A DNA stretch of 64,000 nucleotides, from NCBI GenBank assembly GCA_028829895.1, contig CM054179.1:45583391-45647390 (forward strand), given 5' to 3'. A program made the position numbers and the translations under genes. Below are positions 5,883 through 55,249 of the stretch, piece by piece. Below the pieces are notes generated by a model, which was not told where the DNA came from, searched no databases, and worked only from the letters and a program-made list of their open reading frames with translations. The DNA is from Sinotaia quadrata (Eukaryota > Mollusca > Gastropoda > Architaenioglossa > Viviparidae). The stretch's first letter is position 1. Each line of letters starts with the position of its first letter.

Positions 5883-8800
5883 CTGCAAACAAAGCGATAA
5901 GGAAATCTTTATTAAGCGAAACAAATAGAGCAACTTAGATTTGCATCTTGTGAGGCATCAGCATCCATCAATGGTTATGTTGCCTTTTTAGGTCCTGAGT
6001 GATTTTGTTTGTACGATTAATTTTTTTTCAACCCATGATCCTAGCAATCATGATCTTATGTTTCTCTAGAGGGAGAAAGCCGTTTTGTTGGATGTGTTTC
6101 ATGACATATCACTGGTCTTCAACTAGGATTTTTCACGAAAATACAACCCACCCACCCTTGACCTATTTATACTTGAAGTGTCTGGTCTTGATGCGTGCCT
6201 CCTCCTATGTCCCCAAGATATCGTTCATGTAAAGATCAGAGAGAAAGGGGAAGAACTCGGTAGAAAGAGAAGTAAAAAAGATATACGGTGATGATTCACA
6301 CACATAATTATAACACTTCTGAATCATGTACCCTGAAAGAGGACATGACAACTGTTCTGAGCACAAATTGCACTCTAGAGTCTAAAACCTGTATTGCCGT
6401 TAATGAAAGACAATTTAAGAACCATATCAATTATTGCATCACCATTCCTTATCACAATGAGGAAATATAATTTCTTATGTACAGAACTGGTACTCCAAGT
6501 TATTAATAGTTTCGGGGAAAATCCACATGTCTGACTTATTGAAAGTATGACCATACTCGTCAGGTAAGGGAAGATCATTTTGCCTTCTTAAATAAATTTC
6601 CAATTTATGAATAATTCTTTGGTAGAACCATTCCAAAGATTTAACGTGATAAAATGCTAGCCAGTTATATTCCAAGTCGTACAAAAATTTAATCGTGTCT
6701 TCTTTGTATACTCAAGGGCTGGTTTGCATGTACTGATGAAAAGATTGGATATTCGTTTGTTATAAAGTGATAATTCTCTACTGAAATAGAGCACTTAAGA
6801 ATAACAGAACACGAGTACCACAGCCATTGAAATATAACTTTTTTTTTGTATATCATTTTTTTTTTTTAATTTGAATAGATATGTTTTCCGTATATACAAT
6901 TTTCGCATACCTTTGTTGGAGTTATTATCTGGCACTTCAGTGATTTCTGTATACATTCCTCTTTCTGCTAACAAGGGACTGTAGTGCCCGGGAAGTGTAT
7001 ACAACGGGATATTGGTCGGCTTGGGTACCTCGTAGTTCAGAAGGCTTATTGGGGCAGCCGCCTGCTCCCTGGCTGGAAGTAAATATTTGGACTTCTTTGA
7101 AATTGATCACACCTAGCTTTGTTTTCTATCGTTGCTAATCGTTACTTCTTACCCAGTTAATAATTTTAACACATTCAGTATACTCTTTCTACTATTACTA
7201 CTACTATTGTAACAACTTAAGCAAGCAACCACTAATTGTTATTACGTCATTACATTTGAACATTAAATCAAACTAGACTAGACTAAACTTATAGTAACAG
7301 ATCTAGATGTAGGACGTATGCTGCGAAAAAGTCATGACTACTTTCTGGGTTCCGGTTTTGAAAGCATGGAAAAACTTTGTAGCTTGGCTTTATTGGCTTG
7401 CTTTCCATAAGTATACAATGCAACACAAAAATTCAAAATGCTTGATTTGTATACAGAACAAATACAATTAACTATGCAATAAGTATACAATGCAACACAA
7501 AAATTCAAAATGCTTGATTTGTATACAGAACAAATACCGTTAACTATGCAAAGCAAAAGAAGCAAGAATACAAAATGAAAATACAGAACCAGGTGTTCAT
7601 GTGTCTTATTCTAACCACATCTACTGTACAATTAGAATTTTTAAAATATAAATAAACTGAAAGCGCTTTGTTAGGTATTGGTCACAACCAATTAGAGCGT
7701 GCATGAAATAAAGTCACGATCTGACCTCCAGACGCTGGGCCTGCTTTGTATCGTGTGTGGCCGAAACTAATTAATTCTCGGCTTATAAGGGAGGTAACTT
7801 CTTTTTGTGTCCATGCAAAGTCGATGTGCTGAAAATTACGGTCATAAGGATAAACTCTTTCCATCATTCCCAGCACCCTTAGTGAGCGATAAAACCCCAA
7901 TGTGTACTCCAATCTTGGCAAATATCTTTTATCGTTCTCATTGTCCAAGAACAGACTTGTCTCCCTTGGCTAAGGAAATAATATGCCAAGGTTAAAAAAA
8001 AAGGATCGCGAACGGATTGATTAAATCTGCCACATCAAGGTGAGAAAATCTATTTCAATTTGCAATGCAGGAATTATAAATTATATTTTAAACAGAATAA
8101 TATTTCATTATTAGTAATTTAAGATACATAAAACGTTTGTTCCATCAATTGCTAAATTAATATTTACAATTGTTTCATTGTGTTTGTAAACTAACACACA
8201 TTGATTATTTTATACATTCATGTTCTTTAACAAACTTATGTTCTCTTAATAATATTAAAAACCAATTGCTAACTGTATTTGAATAGTGTACATGTGTTTA
8301 ATAAATACTTTAATTAATTAATTTAATTAATTAGTATAATGCTTGTGAGGAGTGTCATGTCATATTATGTCATGTCAATTGATGTCCCATTACATATTTT
8401 TCAGGTCACCCTGTTGAATAACCTTATGCATTATTCAGTAGTTATCATGTTGACTGTCGTGTCTGAGAGAGATCTGTAGTCATTATTATTATGATTAATT
8501 TTGCTTTTTCTCTCAATTAAAACTGTTAATTTTTAAACCATTTCTTTCTAAACACAATCCATGTCGCAATACGCAAAGAGAAGATAACTTGTTGCAAACT
8601 TAATTGGCGGACTGTGCATTTCCCACCGCTGGCAAAAGACGATAAGGTAACCTAAAATCATGAGTTGTTTCTTCAGTCAGTATGTTTGCCTGCTAAAACT
8701 TTTTGTTGTTTGCTTGCTGACTCGTTATTGTCTCTTCAATCAGTGTGTTGTCTGTTGCTCTTAAATAACAACAACAAAACCCCCGAAGAAATAAATCCAA

Positions 8801-9028: not shown

Positions 9029-10614
9029 AAACACTGTACCAAATTGCAATTTATTTTCACTTGATTATTTATCATTATAATAAATCTTATTTTACAAATC
9101 ATCATTGGATTGCGATGAAAGAATGGCAGTCATGTGTCGCCCACGGCGCTGCCCACTGACCTGGTCGTGACCTGCAGCCTATGCAGCAGATGTAGATCGA
9201 ACAAAAGACAGTCACACCACAGCCAAGCACTCCGGCGATGACCGGTATGAGAAGAGAACTCTCTGCTGGCTGTGAACCTGCAATGGAACCATATCAACAC
9301 ACTCGTGAATCTGCAATGGAACCATATCAACACACCTGCGAATCTGCAATGGAACCATATCAACACACCCGTGAATCTGCAATTAAACCATATCAACACA
9401 CCTCCGAATCTGCAATGGAACCATATCAACACACCCATGAATCTGCAATGGAACCATATCAACACACCCGTGAATCTGCAATTAAACCATATCAACACAC
9501 CTCCGAATCTGCAATGGTACCATATCAACACACCCGTGAATCTGCAATGGAACCATATCAACACACCTCCGAATCTGTAATGGTACCATATCAACACACC
9601 CGTGAATCTGCAATGGTACCATATCAACACACCCGTGAATCTGCAATGGTACCATATCAACACACCCGTGAATCTGCAATGGAACCATATCAACACACCC
9701 GTGAATCTGCAATGGTACCATATCAACACACCCGTGAATCTGCAATGGTACCATATCAACACACCCGTGAATCTGCAATGGTACCATATCAACACACCCG
9801 TGAATCTGCAATGGTACCATATCAACACACCCGTGAATCTGCAATGGTACCATATCAACACACCCGTGAATCTGCAATGGTACCATATCAACACACCCGT
9901 GAATCTGCAATGGTACCATATCAACACACCCGTGAATCTGTAATGGTACCATATCAACACACCCGTGAATCTGCAATGGTACCATATCAACACACCCGTG
10001 AATCTGCAATGGTACCATATCAACACACCCGTGAATCTGCAATGGTACCATATCAACACACCCGTGAATCTGCGTCCAGAAAGAGACCGCATGAGATGAA
10101 GACACAAAATGGTCGAAGTTGTTTACTGGATTGTAGCTTGACACTGCAAGCAAGAAGGAAGTGAAAGCAATGTCGTTTTATCTCGGGTTGATGATGGATG
10201 GAAGCGAAGAAATAGATTGAGAGATTGAGGAGAGAGAGAGAGTTTACAAAGCTGTCATTTACTCACGATGCGTTCGTTGGTGTGTTTGTGGAGTCTTAAT
10301 GTCAAACAGGATCCAATAAAACCCTCCACACTTACGGAACTTGTAAGATAACGTTATAAGACTGGCTGAGAAAACGGCATTCGTGAACATCGTTATGATC
10401 GCTATTAAAACGCATCGCTTTAGTGTAGCATTTTACACATTTATTCGATACAGATGAATTGAGGTCCCATTATATAATTATATGCATTTAAAGAACCACT
10501 TAAATTTTTTAATATAAGTATTAGTTTAAGATATATTGATAGACAGACTGACAGCTAGATAGATATACAGATAGATGGAGAGACATAGATAGATAGACAG
10601 ACAGACAGACAGAG

Positions 10615-10661
<47 letters not shown>

Positions 10662-11975
10662 TAGATAGATACGCATACTTACAATTATCATACTTTGAAT
10701 CAGTTTTTAAGAAGCATTCACATGTGACACTGCTGTCATTCTCTCGTGAACATGTATAACAGTGGTAAGTATAATTACTGCAAGGACTTCCTGAAATAAT
10801 TAATATTATCGTTGCAATTATAATAGAAGAATAACTATATACTATTCACTGATTCTTTGACTAACTCACTTCATCAGTTAGACATAAATGTTAATGTTTG
10901 TGAATACATAACTATTATTTCAACATAACAACGACATTTTATTTTACTGATGTGCTAATTTTATAATATTGCACTCAATTACGTTTTAAAAGGGGCGCCA
11001 TAAGCTATGGATGTATAAATCTTATTACAAACTAATTTCTGTTTAGTGACGATATTTATTTTATCTTTCATGTCCTAGGTTGCCATAGCACGCACTTAAT
11101 ACGCGTTTATTTTCTGCTGTTTGATACCTGTATTCGTATAAAAATAATTATCTGATTGAGACGTAAGCAAACACACGACGCGCATTTTGTCCAAGGAGAA
11201 ACAACAACAACCCCTCGTGTAGTATATATATTGATTCTCTTAAATAATGGATTCTGTGATGTTCAACAATCAATACTGAATTACTCGTGCAGTTCGCCAG
11301 TGGATACTTTCGATACTGACTCTATGGCATGTTAAGATGTTTGTGTATACGGAATTATTAAACTCAAGATGGCTCTATGGCATGTTAAGATGTTTGTGTA
11401 TACGGAATTATTAAACTCAAGGTGACTCTATGGCATGTTAAGATGTTTGTGTATACGGAATTATTAAACTCAAGATGGCTCTATGGCATGTTAAGATGTT
11501 TGTGTATAAGGAATTATTAAGCCCAAGGTGGCTCTATGGCATGTTAAGATGTTTGTGTATAAGGAATTATTAAACTCAAGGTGGCTCTATGGCATGTTAA
11601 GATGTTTGTGTATAAGGAATTATTAAACTCAAGTGGCTCTATGGCATGTTAAGATGTTTGTGTATAAGGAATTATTAAGCTCAAGGTGGCTCTATGGCAA
11701 CTCTCATTCAGAATGGCGATATGCGAGCCCCGTTACGTACCTTAATCGTGCTAGAAAGAGCTGTTACAGTGTTACATAGTGAGTGGTTTCAGTTGTTGGG
11801 TGACATTTTGTTGTTGCATAGTAAAAGGAAATGTCCTTTGTGCTAGAAATGGCTTATGCAATGAGATAAATTGGTAACAAAAATTCATTTATTTAGTAAT
11901 CTTAAATAAAATCATAATATGCGTGTATATATTCGTATGAGTGTTCGTAATTGTTATTATGTGTGTTTTGTGCCG

Positions 11976-12044
<69 letters not shown>

Positions 12045-13404
12045 AGAGAAAGGAGGGAGAGAGGAAAAAAGCAAGCAAACTTGAATACAGATATCTCATG
12101 TATTAAGGAAAGAGTTTGTTTGTTCATTTCCGTTACCAGTACAACGGCTGTTTCCTTCCACGATACATAGACACGCATGCCCGGATGTATTGTTGTCAAT
12201 ACACATCGGTGTGTCATTAGTACAGGTGTGAACTTCATCTGTGCACGAAAGTCCTGTAGAAGCAAGCAAATTCACAAACAGCTCAGAAAATAACTTCTGT
12301 TTCTACTATCTCTCTCTTTTCTCATAATATGCATCTAAAAATTAATCCCAAATGTAGCTAACAAACAAAACTCATCAACAAGCAATAAACAATCAGCGAT
12401 AAACAATCAACAACATATACTAAGTCTGGCACTTTGCAAACAATTAACTAAAGCCATTTTGTTAAAATAAACCGAACAAAACACTGTTTGTCACTTTTTC
12501 AGCACTTCAAGCAAAACTAGATTAAAAACGGATTTATCTTCTCCTTTGGTAAGAAGTTTTCCACCTTTAGAAATATTGTGACAGTGAATGTTTGTCTTTA
12601 ATGTTGTGGAAGAGAGGAAACATTTATAGTACCCGCATATCCGCCAAGTGAAAAAGACTAGTGGTGTCTTCATGAGAATTATTAATGACATAAATTAAGA
12701 TTTTCATCACTTGTAATTATTTTTGGATGATTAATAATAATGATCGTAACCAATAACTAGGTGGCATAGTGTCACACAATCCTAAATATTAATGGTCTTT
12801 ATACAATCCTATATATTAACGGTCTTCATATACAATCTTGATATCTAAATATTGACTATCTTTATATACAACCCTAGATATTCACTATCTTCATACACAA
12901 TCCTAGATAAAAAGGTCGTCATCGGTAATCCTAAATATTAACTGTCTTCTTAAGTAATCCTAGATTTTAACTGTCTTATTATACAATCCTAAATGAAAAG
13001 GTCATAATAGATAGTCCTAGATATCAACTGTCTTCATATGTAATCCTTTATATTATTAACTCTCTTCATATTCAATCCTAGATGTTAACTGCCTTTGTTG
13101 GTAATCCTAGATGTTCTTCATATGTAATTCACTATCTTCATACACAATCCTAGATAAAACGGTCATCATCGGTAGTCCTAGATATTAATTGTCTTCATAG
13201 GCAATCCTTCATATGCATCTTTCTTCATTTACAATCTTCTCACGGGATTTCGTGGCCACGCACTCACATCTACACTGTCTTCATCTTATTAACTTTTCAG
13301 AATAAAGAAAGTTACTTGACAACAAAAGGAACAATTTGTTTATAATATTATTTCGTAAAGCCTCATATGCCTATCAACATAGACTGCATAATTTAATTTT
13401 TTGT

Positions 13405-19497: not shown

Positions 19498-19817
19498 GGA
19501 TGGAAGCTCGGGAATGGAAGTCAGGTAATCTCCCTTGAAATTGGACATGTTCTTCCGCTTGGAGGAGTCCGGCACTGCAGGCACAAAGTCATCACGCGCG
19601 TGTACTCCGGCAGTTAAATTCGTGTCCCTGGCAGTTAAATATGTGTTCATGGCATTTAAATCCGTGTCCCTGGCAGTTAAATATGTGTCCCTGGCAGGAG
19701 TTTTCAAAGTAAGGCAGGGTCGCGGAAGGGGGGCAAAGGAACTGAGTTGAAAAGGTGTATCTCTGGAAACGGCCATTTTGTTTGAAGTAGAGAGTGAAGG
19801 CCGCAAATATCGATCCC
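19477..19817 (-). CDS. Candidate alternative terminal exon of receptor A
   Basis: Acceptor TATCTTTCCAG/GGGATC, then 112 open codons to TAA at 19479-19477. It begins with two bases that complete a split codon, the phase left by receptor A exon 12 (which would give Arg). It holds a seven-residue repeat (ARDTYLT, ARDTDLN, AMNTYLT, ARDTNLT), a basic SSKRKN and a GDYLTSIPEL end. No membrane exon lies between it and the receptor A stop, so it is either a second tail for receptor A or a stray exon of a lost paralogue. No recognised domain. Confidence 0.5.
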
Positions 19818-22367: not shown

Positions 22368-42500
<20,133 letters not shown>

Positions 42501-49615: not shown

Positions 49616-52432
49616 CGTGCGTATGAGCCTGATATAAAATAGCTAATTGCGAGTAATTACCAGATATTTAAGGAATTAATTATGAGTAATGCTACTGTGT
49701 TCTATTTGTAATAGTTTAAAATCTATTTTTAGAATTCTTTAGCAATTAGCGTACCTCTGCCTGTCGATCTAAGGGGGGCCTCATATATTTCATTTTCTTC
49801 AGTCCTGTGATGGTAGTGTTGAGCAATTGTATATATTGGGATCAGTGTGTCGGTCTTGGGTCTTTCGTACTCAGAGTTGTTATCAAAGTTGTTCCCGTCG
49901 TACTCAGGGTTGTTATCAGGGTTGTTCCCGTCTAGTGTTCGTTGACCTAATGTGAACGAAATTTATGTCAGCGTTTGACTTTGGTAAATGGTAGAAATAA
50001 GAATTTATCTCTTAAATAAAGCACCAAGCCAAACAATTGCCATGAATAAATTAAAAACTCATTTATCACTTCACACATACAATAAGTAAATAAGTATACA
50101 AGACCCACAAGCAATGATGACATTGATAAAAAGGAAAATGATGACGGTTTGATACTATGTTACAAGTCTGATAAAATCCGTGTCATGACTTCTTGACCCA
50201 CTTGCTGTTTTCAAAAATTAAACTTTGAAACTTCCTTTGTTAAAGTTCTCCCATGATACATCAGTATCGAGAAGCTTCTAGCAAAGAGGTCAGGACGTTA
50301 TGTAACTTTAGGCCATTGTCTAGATTCTCGAACCAACTACATACCACGTGACCCGTCACGTGACGCGCTTTATGCATTTTTAATAAATACAGACACGCAC
50401 TCCAAAATTGTCACTCCGATCCAGAAAACGGCGACCGTCGTACCGTCGCATATTCGTGAGTCGATAGAGGAACCCGACGCTATTTTGCTCTGAAGGTAAC
50501 ACTTCGACTTCTCGCAAAGGTACTGCATTTATTTAATTGTATCTTGCATTTTGAACCATGTATGTAATTTTGTGCTATTCATTGCTACTTTAGCTTCGCT
50601 TGTAAATGACAAAACCTATAAGTTATTGTATATAAGTTATTGTAACTCTTTTCCATTGTAACTTTAATTTATATAACTTTAAATTCACTAGTGCCAGAAG
50701 CACCTGTGCACGACATGAATTTCCTATGTAATTCAAATTATTGCGTGTAATTTTAATGTTAAATTGTGAAGCGCTTTGCTTGATTTGAATTGTTCCTTTG
50801 TATGAACTCTAAATTTTAACGTTGTAAATATTTGGTAATTCATACGTCATGTACTGTTAAATGTAACATACGTGAAATCATTTATATTTTCGAATCTAAA
50901 TTGTAAACGATGCGTTAGTCGAATTTCTAACTCAAAGCATTTAAATACGAATCGTGCTTAGGTTGGGCGAACCTTAAACACAGAACGATTATGAGAACAT
51001 TCTTGTTTTCAGGTCGGTTCTTGGTTCCTAGTTTCGATGCCTAGTTCCGAACTCCCAGAGTCGAGTTCTACTCCAATTACAGTCCTACTGCCATTGTTGG
51101 AAAGGTGCTGACGAGCAGGTCTGCACATCCTTTGTCTACACTTACATTCTTCGTCCGGCGTGATAACTGAGAGACAGTTTCCGTTTTTGCTGTGTGCATT
51201 TGCTGGCGAACGATTAAGTGAGGTGGACCGGTTTGGACTGGATCAGGAACCCATGTGGTATCAATCAAAAGTTAAGTAATAACTGGTGGATCAAAAATCA
51301 CAAGGAACATTTCTTGGCATATTTCTCAAAGAACATTGACAAGCATTATTTAATTGCCGAGTAGAATTAGACTTCGAGCTCGTGTATTGATTATCTTGTT
51401 AATTGTTAAAACTTATTAAATCTTATTTTTAAATTGTTAAACCTTTTCGTAGTACATTTTTATGCATAATAGACCTAAAATTACATGGTTTGGATGGGGG
51501 CGATTGAGCTGAATGACGTAATGAATGCATATTAATTAAGAGGAATTTAACGACTCCAAGCCAGCTTTTGTACGCAAGTTGTCAGTTCGTAAATCTGTCG
51601 TCTTCACTACAAAGACGCATTTTTAATGTCAGTCGAATGATAATTTGGGCAACCAGTCTGTGTAAGATAGGGAGAAGGAGTTAATTTAATCTAAACACAT
51701 TTAAGTCCTTAAAATCTTATGCAGGGTCTATAAAGAAATACTGGAAACGTAACATACTACAACTTTGAAGACGAGGACCCGGTTGATAAAGACAATGACC
51801 AAACTAATGTTATGTAAGGAACATCAATATATATTTACAGACTTAACAAATTACTATGAAATTCATTGTAAATATAAATTAAATATTCATATGTAATGCA
51901 ACTACAACAACAATTAGGGTTATGACTGCAACGATTACTACAATAATAACAAACTTCTTTTAACACAACATTGTTAATACCCTACGTGTAAACAATGCAA
52001 TAGTATTGTAAGTTACAATCGAAGGAAATTTATATTCCAATTGTATTTTCTATCAAAAGGAATTAGTTCAGTTTACATTTAAATAATAAAAAGAATTAAT
52101 TAAGTTTGCATTGAAAATGCGTTTTCTAAAAGAGGGGATTAATTAAGTTTACATTTAAAGTGTATTTCCTAATAAAGCGATTAATAAAGTTTACATTTAA
52201 AGTGTATTTTCTAATAAAGGGGATTAATGAAGTTTACATTTAAAGTGTCTTTTTCTAACAAAGGGAATTAACTATGCTGAGATTTCGGCAAGATGCCAGT
52301 CGCCAGGTACAGACCTCTTCTAGACCGACAACCTGCGCACAGGATGCAGATTATACACAAGACAGTCACGCCACAAGCAGCTATCCCCGTGATGATTGGA
52401 ATAATGTCAGGCATCCCCCATGGATAGCGGAT
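48619..52432 (-). CDS. Receptor B: membrane helix and tail, 5' part not found
   Basis: Three exons (52432-52315, 49946-49755, 48776-48619) join in phase to give the last 155 residues of a receptor paralogous to C: membrane helix, tyrosine-rich tail, proline-containing end. The tail has NNPEYD (an NPxY motif, used for PTB adaptors and endocytosis; CED-1 signals through one), NNSEYE, PIYTIAQHY and NEIYEAP. No EGF or signal exon could be found between 52433 and the right edge, where retroelement debris is dense. Also, the membrane exon needs phase 0, whereas C uses phase 1. So B is either a gene with distant 5' exons or a decaying copy. Confidence 0.6.
48777..49754 (-). other. Receptor B last intron
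   Basis: AT-rich, with a GT run at about 49579-49612. At 49190-49290 a 55-base segment (ACTGGGTTTCTATCTGTCA) is duplicated. No further exon found. Confidence 0.5.
49755..49946 (-). CDS. Receptor B tail exon with NPxY
   Basis: Acceptor TTCACATTAG/GTCAAC, donor GGCAGAG/GTACGC, phase 1 at both ends. It has an 11-residue repeat, GNNPDNNPEYD then GNNFDNNSEYE, encoded by a 33-bp tandem duplication, followed by RPKTDTLIPIYTIAQHY and NEIYEAPL. The part from YERPK to QHY matches receptor C exon 5. Confidence 0.85.
49947..52314 (-). other. Receptor B intron with promoter-like sequence on the plus strand
   Basis: At 50340-50365 two CACGTG palindromes lie 6 bases apart, followed by an AATAAATA stretch, a GC-richer segment and a donor-like GCAAAG/GTACTG at 50520. 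A TTTTCAG acceptor occurs at 51012. Only a 24-codon ORF follows, so this is either a non-coding RNA start or an LTR. A diverged 42-50 bp array lies at 52090-52266 (AGTTTACATTTAAAGTGTAT unit). Confidence 0.4.
52090..52266. repeat. Degenerate minisatellite, 42-50 bp unit, 4 copies
   Basis: The unit GGATTAATTAAGTTTACATT, TAAAGTGTATTTTCTAATAA recurs close to the donor of the receptor B membrane exon. Confidence 0.85.
52315..52432 (-). CDS. Receptor B transmembrane exon
   Basis: Acceptor TTCCGTTTGCAG/ATCCGC, donor TCTAGAAGAG/GTCTGT. Read in phase 0 it encodes IRYPWGMPDIIPIITGIAAC then GVTVLCIICILCAGCRSRRG. The matching exon in receptor C enters in phase 1; if B were entered in phase 1 it would stop after eight codons. 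Confidence 0.8.
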
Positions 52433-55249
52433 CTGCAAACGGAACCACATCAACATGCAAATGTCAGTACGTCCATGTGTAACGCTATTGCAAAATATAT
52501 TTCAAACAATAATATGTACGCTAACAGCATCACAACATGCTGCAGCATAATTTTTCTCAGTGCTGCATGAATTGTCGCTGAGGGGCAGACGTAGTGTTAT
52601 TGAAGTTTGGATCCATTTAGCCGCAAATTGTGACTGCAGCAAAGTTTGGATCCATTTAGCCGTAATATCGTGACTGCAGCAAAGTTTGGATCCATTTAGT
52701 CGTAAATCGTGACTGCAGCAAAGTTTAAAGGTTAAAAATAAAGTATGCTAAGACTTGTTTTATTAGGGTAGGATTACGGTTCGAGATGAGCTGGGAAGAT
52801 AGCGAGGAGAAGAGGACTAAATTTTACTATGGATTTCTTCGTTTTATGTCACTACAGTGTCATAATGCTCCATCTCAGGTCCAGAGGTGTGTCATAACGT
52901 TCCGCCTTTGCTCGAGGAGTTTGTCAAAATGTTCCATCTCCGAGAACAAGGTGTATGTCATACCATTCCACCCCTGCTTTAGGAGCCTGTCATAATGCTG
53001 CAATTCTGCACACGATATGTGTCATAATGTTCCACTTTTTAAGAGAAGCCTGTCATAATGCTCCATCTCAGGTCAAGAGGTGTGTCAAAACGTTCCATCT
53101 CTGCTCTGGAATTATGAATTATAGTTAATGTGAATCTGATTAAAGTAAGATAATAATGAACTTAACAAAATTTTAAAAACAGACCATTTGATTCAAGACA
53201 AAACGGAAAAACGAGCATTTGATTGAGGACTTATGTCTTTGAACTTTGCATATTTTATTTCATTAATAGTCTTGCATGTATTTAACTTCTATTATTATTA
53301 GATGAGAGGTGTTTTTGAGTGACTAATAATTCTTAGTAAACTGAGGCGTTATCCTAACTGAAATGAGCTGCGGACTTCCCGAAGTTAATACGTTTTATTG
53401 ACTTGTCTCTGTACTTTTCCATAGTGTTTTCTGTGTAGTTATACCGTTTACCTCACTGTTAGAGTGAATAATAATTATAATCAACCATTACTGCATTCAT
53501 TTTATTTTCAGAACATGTCTATGTATTTCCTGTAATCTGTGACAGATCCTCATGTGTCTTTGAGGATTTTTTTTCTTATTAAATATTTCCTGGACAAGAT
53601 TGATATCTTCCTACGTCATTGTTCTCTGTATCTGTGACGTCATGGACTCGTAAATACGGGATGAGGGTAAAGTAGAAGTACTTGGGAAGATATTTCCATT
53701 TAGTTAAGAGCTAGCTTTTAACTCGGGGATTTACGTGTGTAATATTTATTGTTTTAATTAATATCGTAATATAACATAAACGCATCGGGAATGACTAGTA
53801 ACCTCCAGGTTTAAGACACAGTTTATATGTGTATCGCATGCGTGTTCATGTAAATGCCTGTCAGCAAGACGTAATCTGATACTTATTTCTTTTGTGTGAA
53901 ATATAATGTGTTTCATGTTTGTGAACTCCAGTTTATGTCCGAATATTTGTCTGCATCCTGACTGACTGACATACAAATATTCTAAAACGAAAGAATGTGC
54001 ACGTAAAGTAAGTGAGTATGTATTTGATAGAAACTTGGGCAAAGACAGGTATTTAAATAAGGCTCGAGCCGCCCCCTTTGAGTTATCATTCAACCATTTC
54101 TCATACTTTGAACCGTGAACATTCCTAAGCAGTAACTTAACTGTTGAACGTTATAAAACTTAGCAAAGACAGTTCATATATTAGCATTTCTTTTCTTCTT
54201 TCTTTCCACACCCTGAAAGTTGAAATAAATTACTATAAACTCACATTTGTATACAGAAAACCTTGTACAGTACCTTCGGATTTACGTTCTTTGTTATTCC
54301 CAAGCGAAGTCTTTATACTTCCTTATTCAAGGCCTCCCAGTGCCCTGTGCAGTCCTCTATTTCAAACTTACTTTCTAATGTCTGGGATGGTGTGAATGGA
54401 ACTTTAGTTTGTTTTGCTTTTATTTTTGTCGTTAGCTAACTATTCCGGTCTAGGCCAATGTACGAGGATGCTGGTAGAACCGTTTGAACATTCTGCATTG
54501 CACTGGGATGCGCTAATGTTTTGCTAATTCGACTGAAACGTGCGTTATCGAAACAAGTCGTGCTTGACTGGATACGATATATAGAAATGTGAGTAGACAG
54601 GTAAGAATTATAAAGGGCACAGTAGAGAGATACTTCCGTCTTGGTGAATAGTAAACGATATGTAAAAGATTAGTAAACGATATGAAACCGCTTTATTTAG
54701 CAGCAACACCGCTAACTTAGGAAAGCGAGTTTCTTGAAAATTATTGACGATTCATTCATGTAAAAAGACGGCTTGGGGAGATAACTGTAGCGTCCACTCA
54801 TGCAGTACAAGAAAAACAGTGAGTTATTTCTGGGGTCTCCATGGAGTGACGTCATTGCTCGCATAATAATGCAGTGATAAGTTGATCTCTGACGACCGGT
54901 AACCACGAATCTAAGTATACCTGTAAATGTCGCCTGCTCTGTACACGTTTCTGCTACCTTTTAAATGGTATCTGCTACCTATAAGTATTGTCGCACACCT
55001 ACGTATGCTTGTTATTACCTATGAGGGCTTTTCCGCCTCCATTATGTGTTTTCTGCTTTATAAAAGTATTGTCTATCCTATGAATGGGGAATTTTCTCAT
55101 ATAAAAGTACTGTCTCTCATATATATGAAGGAGAATTGTCCCTCATAAAAGTATTGTCTATCCTATGAAGGTGAATTTTCTCTAAAAGTACTCTCTCATA
55201 TATGAAGGAGAATTGTCCCTCATTAAAAGTATTGTCTGTCCTATGAAGG
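52433..55249. other. Upstream of the visible part of receptor B
   Basis: No EGF or signal exon seen. It holds a 43-bp triplicate (52605-52728, AGTTTGGATCCATTTAGCCG), a degenerate array (52855-53105, TGTCATAATGCTCCATCTCA-like) and small duplications of TATGAAGGAGAATTGTCCCT at 54950-55250. Confidence 0.5.
52605..52728. repeat. Tandem triplicate, about 43 bp unit
   Basis: AGTTTGGATCCATTTAGCCG, TAAATCGTGACTGCAGCAA repeated three times. Confidence 0.9.

Follow-up and report, generated by a model that had tools for sequence, protein, structure and literature searches.

How an exon comes to be preceded by two dozen copies of a 3' splice site, and what those copies might do to the transcript, is the question raised by a minisatellite in the snail Sinotaia quadrata. 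The array lies in the 64,000 nucleotides of contig CM054179.1 analysed here (hereafter the window, numbered from its first base), directly before the exon that encodes the membrane helix of a putative receptor, receptor C. On the minus strand, positions 10069 to 9278 are made up of 24 whole, head-to-tail units of 33 bp when registered on the last AG (9279-9278); TRF places the array at 9272-10073, with a period of 33, 24.3 copies and 94 % matches. As the initial annotation had described, the branch-like TTGAT is present in all 24 units, as is the terminal CAG. The branch-like A stands 16 nt from the G of the AG, and the positions of branch motif and AG are invariant across the 24 units. The same annotation had every unit ending in CCATTGCAG, which is accurate for 20 of the 24, two of the others ending in TTTAATTGCAG and two in CCATTACAG; the variant units are dispersed along the array. 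The terminal unit (9310-9278) had been taken for the acceptor of the membrane exon, and this held up: its AG opens the 117-nt exon 9277-9161, which is open, enters in phase 1, encodes the helix SQPAESSLLIPVIAGVLGCGVTVFCSIYICCIGCRSRP and has a paralogue starting at 52432, with a homologous acceptor at 52433. It is also the only unit followed by an exon-side G, which none of the 23 other copies (hereafter decoys) has. In short, each unit carries splice-site sequence and the neighbouring exon has its own site in the end unit, two marks of a splice-site minisatellite, while the site is an acceptor and not a donor as in the IFI6 type. The array is a genuine oddity, and a well-rooted one.

Other identities for the stretch were considered and rejected. 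As coding sequence, the array has several of its six frames open, yet a 33-bp unit holds a whole number of codons; every unit puts a stop into the frame that leads on to the helix, and the frame reading IHGCVDMVPLQ closes near 9482. A U12-type intron finds no match, since none of the seven exact occurrences of RTATCCTT in the window falls within 9278-12253 and the upstream donor is ATT/GTAAGT. A tandem acceptor of the NAGNAG type has its AGs 3 nt apart, and those of the array are spaced 33 nt. As a separate feature, GGTACC occurs in 15 of the 24 units (9509-10069, minus strand), where ATGGTACCAT forms a perfect palindrome between the branch motif and the AG; the terminal unit is without it.

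The consequences of using one unit or another depend on the gene around the array. On the minus strand, the exon directly upstream is 10790-10683, with five cysteines and a sixth split T/GT across the junction, and farther upstream lies a cysteine-rich exon, 12253-12137. Both appear to be EGF-like, the nearer by cysteine spacing only; the farther has a weak tblastn match (E 0.001) to an EGF exon elsewhere in the cluster. Beyond the membrane exon (phase 1 to 1, donor CAG/GTCAGT) follow the first cytoplasmic exon, 7072-6911, also phase 1 to 1, and the final exon, 5882-5623, which contains the stop codon; these two are open over 162 and 260 nt, respectively, and their phases agree. Pfam returned no family for a translation that joins the upstream exons to the membrane exon, and no protein homologue of receptor C was found among 408 candidates with E up to 10. 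In the window, the putative entry phases of the transmembrane exons of receptors C (9161-9277), A (52315-52432) and B (23642-23754, all minus strand) are 1, 0 and 2, and the introns downstream of them are of phase 1 in all three receptors. The cytoplasmic exons 22421-22657, 6911-7072 and 49755-49946 (minus strand), one from each of the three, contain several tyrosine motifs each, which we take to resemble those of tyrosine-phosphorylated signalling receptors.

Exon 10790-10683 ends in the donor ATT/GTAAGT with its next codon split T/GT, and the sixth cysteine is completed only if the next exon starts with GT, as is true of the terminal acceptor only among the 24 of the array. The membrane frame is likewise kept by the terminal copy alone. 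All 23 decoys run into the same TGA after five codons, ahead of the helix, which confirms the earlier proposal that every decoy would lose the helix in the same way. That proposal had spliced the array to exon 12253-12137, one exon too far upstream, the nearest being 10790-10683, and had given the resulting tail as Asp-Ser-Arg-Val-Cys followed by TGA. The common TGA stands, and from 12253-12137 the tail is indeed DSRVC for 18 of the 23, the remaining five being variants (DSEVC three times, DSQVC and DSWVC once each); from the nearest exon the corresponding tails are YSRVC (18/23), YSEVC (3), YSQVC (1) and YSWVC (1). By arithmetic, the decoy stop lies at least 133 nt upstream of the next exon junction. 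A stop that far upstream of a junction makes a transcript a substrate for decay under the vertebrate rule.

The source of the 33-bp unit can be sought in the paralogous transmembrane exon of receptor A (52315-52432, minus strand), which is preceded by a single-copy acceptor. Within the window, the membrane exons of C and A are 54 % identical over 37 residues (E 1.2e-7), and 74 of 120 aligned nucleotide positions match. The receptor A acceptor, TGTTGATGTGGTTCCGTTTGCAG, and the terminal unit, TGTTGATATGGTTCCATTGCAG, are identical at 20 of 23 aligned positions; among 1824 YAG sites on the same strand, with the array excluded, the receptor A acceptor was the top match (score 13, the next being 8), and in 200000 random pairings of YAG sites, which take in other repeats, a score this high came up 241 times. 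The next two introns of the A/C pair (cyt1 and cyt2) are unalike, with scores of -1 and -2. Exact copies of a 15-base core of the unit, TGTTGATRTGGTTCC, number 14 in 984 Mb: seven in the array, one at the receptor A acceptor and six elsewhere. With one mismatch allowed, the core shows no enrichment genome-wide (193 places against 232 for the reversed word), and an array of the unit was found solely here among the matches listed (about 100 of the 193). Because the A and C acceptors are alike, the neighbouring introns are not, and the exact core is rare, the array unit is, judged by its sequence, a descendant of the membrane exon's own acceptor. The receptor A acceptor is itself a putative splice site; its exon has a predicted phase 0 entry, against phase 1 in C, and the upstream exon of receptor A was not found. 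No transmembrane-exon paralogue besides that of receptor A was present in the 264 kb formed by the window and 100 kb on each side. Since the unit and the exon share the start xTTCAC, the comparison suggests that about six bases of exon were duplicated along with the end of the intron.

The reading that we favour, and hold to be probable though far from certain, is that the array is a junction minisatellite that formed passively and that the exon-adjacent copy is still the working acceptor. The 33-bp founder would have taken in some 27 nt from the 3' end of the intron, with the branch-like TGTTGAT and the TTGCAG, and probably about 6 nt of the transmembrane exon. It would then have been tandemly duplicated and have grown to 24 copies, presumably toward the intron side. 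The exon-adjacent copy is most likely the working acceptor, as it alone has the exon-side G, alone keeps the helix frame and alone completes the sixth cysteine. It may be marked for the splicing machinery by that G, by its short distance from the donor of the same exon and by the exposure of its AG, for which the predicted single-strandedness is the highest of the 24 (0.65, against 0.26-0.56 for the others); predicted exposure of branch and AG is otherwise nearly equal from unit to unit. In RNA folding, the eight distal units beat shuffled sequences by a weak signal (z -2.5, with 1 of 200 shuffles as good), and the six proximal units with the exon were not above shuffles (z +0.7). The remaining 23 copies would be decoys which, if used, give the five-residue tail and stop, the RNA being either degraded or translated to a short soluble form. 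Decoy use would presumably be under no selection, of which the decoys show no sign, a 24-unit array being too homogeneous for the invariance of its units to mean much.

Passive capture presupposes that arrays are common enough to fall on splice sites unaided. The window holds 30 non-overlapping minisatellites (period of at least 15, three or more copies) amounting to 8.0 kb of the 64 kb, and the 264 kb hold 91, amounting to 22.8 kb. For an array edge to fall on an exon edge in the window, P was 0.29 under free placement and 0.16 with arrays kept off exons. With 14 exons and TRF edges, one array lay within 6 bp of a boundary (P 0.16), and a limit of 17 bp brought the count to two (P 0.045); when the donor array of receptor B was re-registered to 31458, two arrays lay within 6 bp (P 0.013). 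With 16 exons, one of them found by looking beside an array, three arrays lay within 17 bp (P 0.021). Over the 264 kb, 2 of 91 arrays lay within 6 bp of a boundary (P 0.084) and 4 of 91 within 17 bp (P 0.038), one of the four on the doubtful automatic acceptor 134996. The evidence for enrichment of arrays at splice sites over random placement is mixed, P ranging from 0.013 to 0.29. Counted the other way, 5 of 107 automatically placed boundaries lay in or at arrays, and of 20000 positions drawn at random outside exons 1913 did so (9.6 %), which is no enrichment; the five include two untrusted automatic acceptors, -74494 and 134996, and exclude donor 31459, the TRF edge there being 17 bp off. 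Nor were local repeats enriched at donors (5/55, against 24/275 control windows) or at acceptors (2/52, against 27/260). Arrays appear to capture splice sites at about the same rate as the rest of the sequence, or more rarely.

Junction arrays recur nearby, mostly at donors. In receptor B, the stretch 31458-31088 (minus strand) is a donor minisatellite with a 23-bp unit (spacing 23-24 bp) and 16 copies of GTCAGT, the first of which serves exon 31719-31459 as its donor; a G at -1 is confined to that copy next to the exon (1/16). From the third copy onward, the sites lie past an in-frame TAG. The 3' end of the same gene's coding sequence is the start of another array, of 14 copies of 47 bp (19493-18836, minus strand), whose first unit takes in the final codons and the stop; the 32 bases that span the end of the coding sequence recur exactly inside it. 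In the flanks, 100 kb on each side, four donors carry two to eleven tandem copies. Two of these, L013 (-59921, plus strand) and L025 (124112, minus strand), belong to paralogues of exon 31719-31459 and repeat their own donor, CACAG/GTAAG, in a short tandem run with a first spacing of 21 bp, in frame; the donor is thus duplicated in three paralogues of this exon family, with sequences unlike one another. The other two are inverted paralogues that differ in copy number. L011 (-75197 to -74744, plus strand) is an EGF-exon donor array of 41 bp x 11, each unit with about 29 nt of exon and 12 nt of intron, and L026 (138630-138867, minus strand) is one of 39 bp x 6.1, whose first copies are in frame at 13 residues per unit. 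In arrays with exon sequence in the unit, the extra donors match the first in quality, so that marking by an exon-side G is not general. As to their setting, the loci L009-L028 form clusters of closely similar EGF exons that flank the window in opposite orientations, from -75 to -45 kb on the plus strand and from +72 to +139 kb on the minus strand.

Genome-wide, three successive copies of the donor word CAGGTAAG at 10-40 nt spacing gave 850 matches where the reversed word gave 525; the matches overlap, one array yielding several, and those listed fall in at least 31 places, all on one contig (C1). An upstream open frame of at least 40 codons preceded 7 of the 20 donor-word arrays that were taken from these 31 places, against 86 of 400 control positions. 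Five of the 20 were judged by eye to adjoin coding exons: L030, clearly an fn3 exon (Pfam E 1.8e-10); L042, a homeodomain match below the cut-off (Pfam E 0.0022) in a frame that has an earlier possible donor; L033, a weak CUB match, also below the cut-off (Pfam E 0.056); L029, with no meaningful Pfam match; and L045, with no match in Pfam or among PDB sequences. For the acceptor word TTTGCAG, triples, whose matches likewise overlap, showed no clear excess (2977 against 2608 reversed), and none of 20 such arrays adjoined an exon recognised by eye, a result of little weight for so unspecific a word; an open length of at least 40 codons was found at 5 of the 20, against 86 of 400 controls. Single-word counts in the 264 kb, word against reversed word, were 11 against 11 and 52 against 36. 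It is the background rate of arrays, together with the recurrence of donor arrays, that favours passive capture. The tests are not wholly null, though, and two of them (the P of 0.038 over the 264 kb and the excess of donor-word arrays) speak against it.

Passive capture also has to contend with the number of the decoys. Scanning for the first AG starts from the branch point, according to the passages of PMC1431707 that deal with it. If so, each unit would be a self-contained competitor and 23 decoys should cost the gene heavily; such costly decoys could be tolerated since they are used. One way of using them, put forward in the initial annotation, would be for the 23 to compete for branch point and AG, so that a fixed fraction of transcripts is diverted into a product that stops short of the helix, with copy number tuning that fraction. 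Every unit does have its own branch-like motif 16 nt before the AG, the stop is uniform, and the cysteine of the decoy tail falls four residues past the lost sixth cysteine, so that a soluble EGF-like fold is conceivable; an intronic VNTR is also reported, in the part of PMC11830802 concerned with it, to shift the isoform ratio of human TERT, by another route. Even so, this use of the decoys is unlikely: the distance from the decoy stop to the next junction predicts decay, splice boundaries within arrays are no commoner than the background, and of selection keeping the decoys there is no sign, in an array too homogeneous to tell. The wider version, in which the genome employs junction-straddling minisatellites as copy-number-variable splicing modules and the array length of receptor C sets the balance of a membrane form and a short soluble form with a substitute cysteine, seems to us distinctly improbable. 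If the 23 in-register competitors ahead of the helix exon are instead simply harmful, the expansion would have damaged receptor C, with membrane transcripts rare and the gene heading for loss or for a soluble function; but the cytoplasmic exons are still open and their phases match, and we hold such damage to be improbable.

The stretch just upstream of the array raises a different difficulty for passive capture. Two acceptor-like sites, with exon starts at 10143 and 10069 (minus strand), have pyrimidine runs of 10 and 9, which exceed those of every unit (2 to 4). Were either the main site, the array would be exonic. An ORF at 10177-9482 allows about 220 codons from 10143 through much of the array, ending near 9482, and reads across it as the 11-residue repeat IHGCVDMVPLQ; a secreted form would result. 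Open frames across a 33-bp repeat are, however, expected by chance, and several of the six are open here; the helix and the sixth cysteine would be lost; and the intron upstream in receptor A (about 365 nt aligned) has no matching sequence above shuffles. This use of an upstream site is about as improbable as damage to the gene. Lastly, assemblies often go wrong in long tandem arrays of near-identical units, and the copy number could in part be an artefact; the scattering of variant units through the array and the chromosome-scale contigs (26 contigs, 984 Mb) make this very improbable. Passive capture with a working terminal copy is the reading carried forward here.

Among known systems, the nearest is the human 6-16/IFI6 minisatellite, which supplies multiple splice donors (Turri 1995, as cited in passages of PMC3618361 and PMC4526556); downstream repeat units act as donors and yield several mRNAs, according to the same passage of PMC4526556. 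The likeness is that minisatellite units supply splice sites to an adjoining exon; the difference is that the site is a donor in IFI6, whereas in receptor C it is an acceptor and the use of the decoys is putative. Tandem repeats at the exon-intron boundaries of human duplicated genes have also been linked to alternative splicing, and the portion of PMC2812944 describing them recalls the present case in that minisatellites, with a mean unit of 30 bp, have expanded where exon meets intron in recent paralogues. Those repeats number about four on average and are read there as formation of novel introns, whereas the receptor C array has 24 units; that portion of the account includes no array of acceptors in front of a membrane exon. 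The statement in the initial annotation that no case of this kind had been described was thus too strong in view of IFI6 and these boundary repeats, although a search of the open-licence literature found no acceptor minisatellite. TERT VNTR6-1 is comparable in being a VNTR inside an intron that is linked to the ratio of isoforms but, as presented in the relevant part of PMC11830802, it lies about 3.5 kb from the exon and is proposed to act through G-quadruplexes, not by way of copied splice sites. In NAGNAG acceptors several AGs likewise compete for one exon, but these are 3 nt apart in the description drawn on from PMC3250501, whereas in receptor C they stand 33 nt apart, each copy with a branch-like motif. 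In Caenorhabditis elegans, a minisatellite is enriched near multiple splicing decisions, as stated in a passage of PMC4039745.

The array provides a naturally occurring set of 24 almost identical 3' splice sites that compete at one exon, with a single-copy homologue 43 kb away. How an acceptor is chosen, be it by the first AG, by the base on the exon side or by how far the donor of the exon lies, could be addressed there in a native setting. The genome is, moreover, rich in perfect donor-word arrays, at least one of them on a certain exon, and could show the rate at which splice sites are captured as well as the effects on transcripts. Minisatellites also occur within coding exons of the window, one with ARDTYLT-type repeats in the tail of receptor B (19609-19697, minus strand) and another, of 33 bp x 2.1, in the tail exon of receptor A (49865-49932, minus strand).
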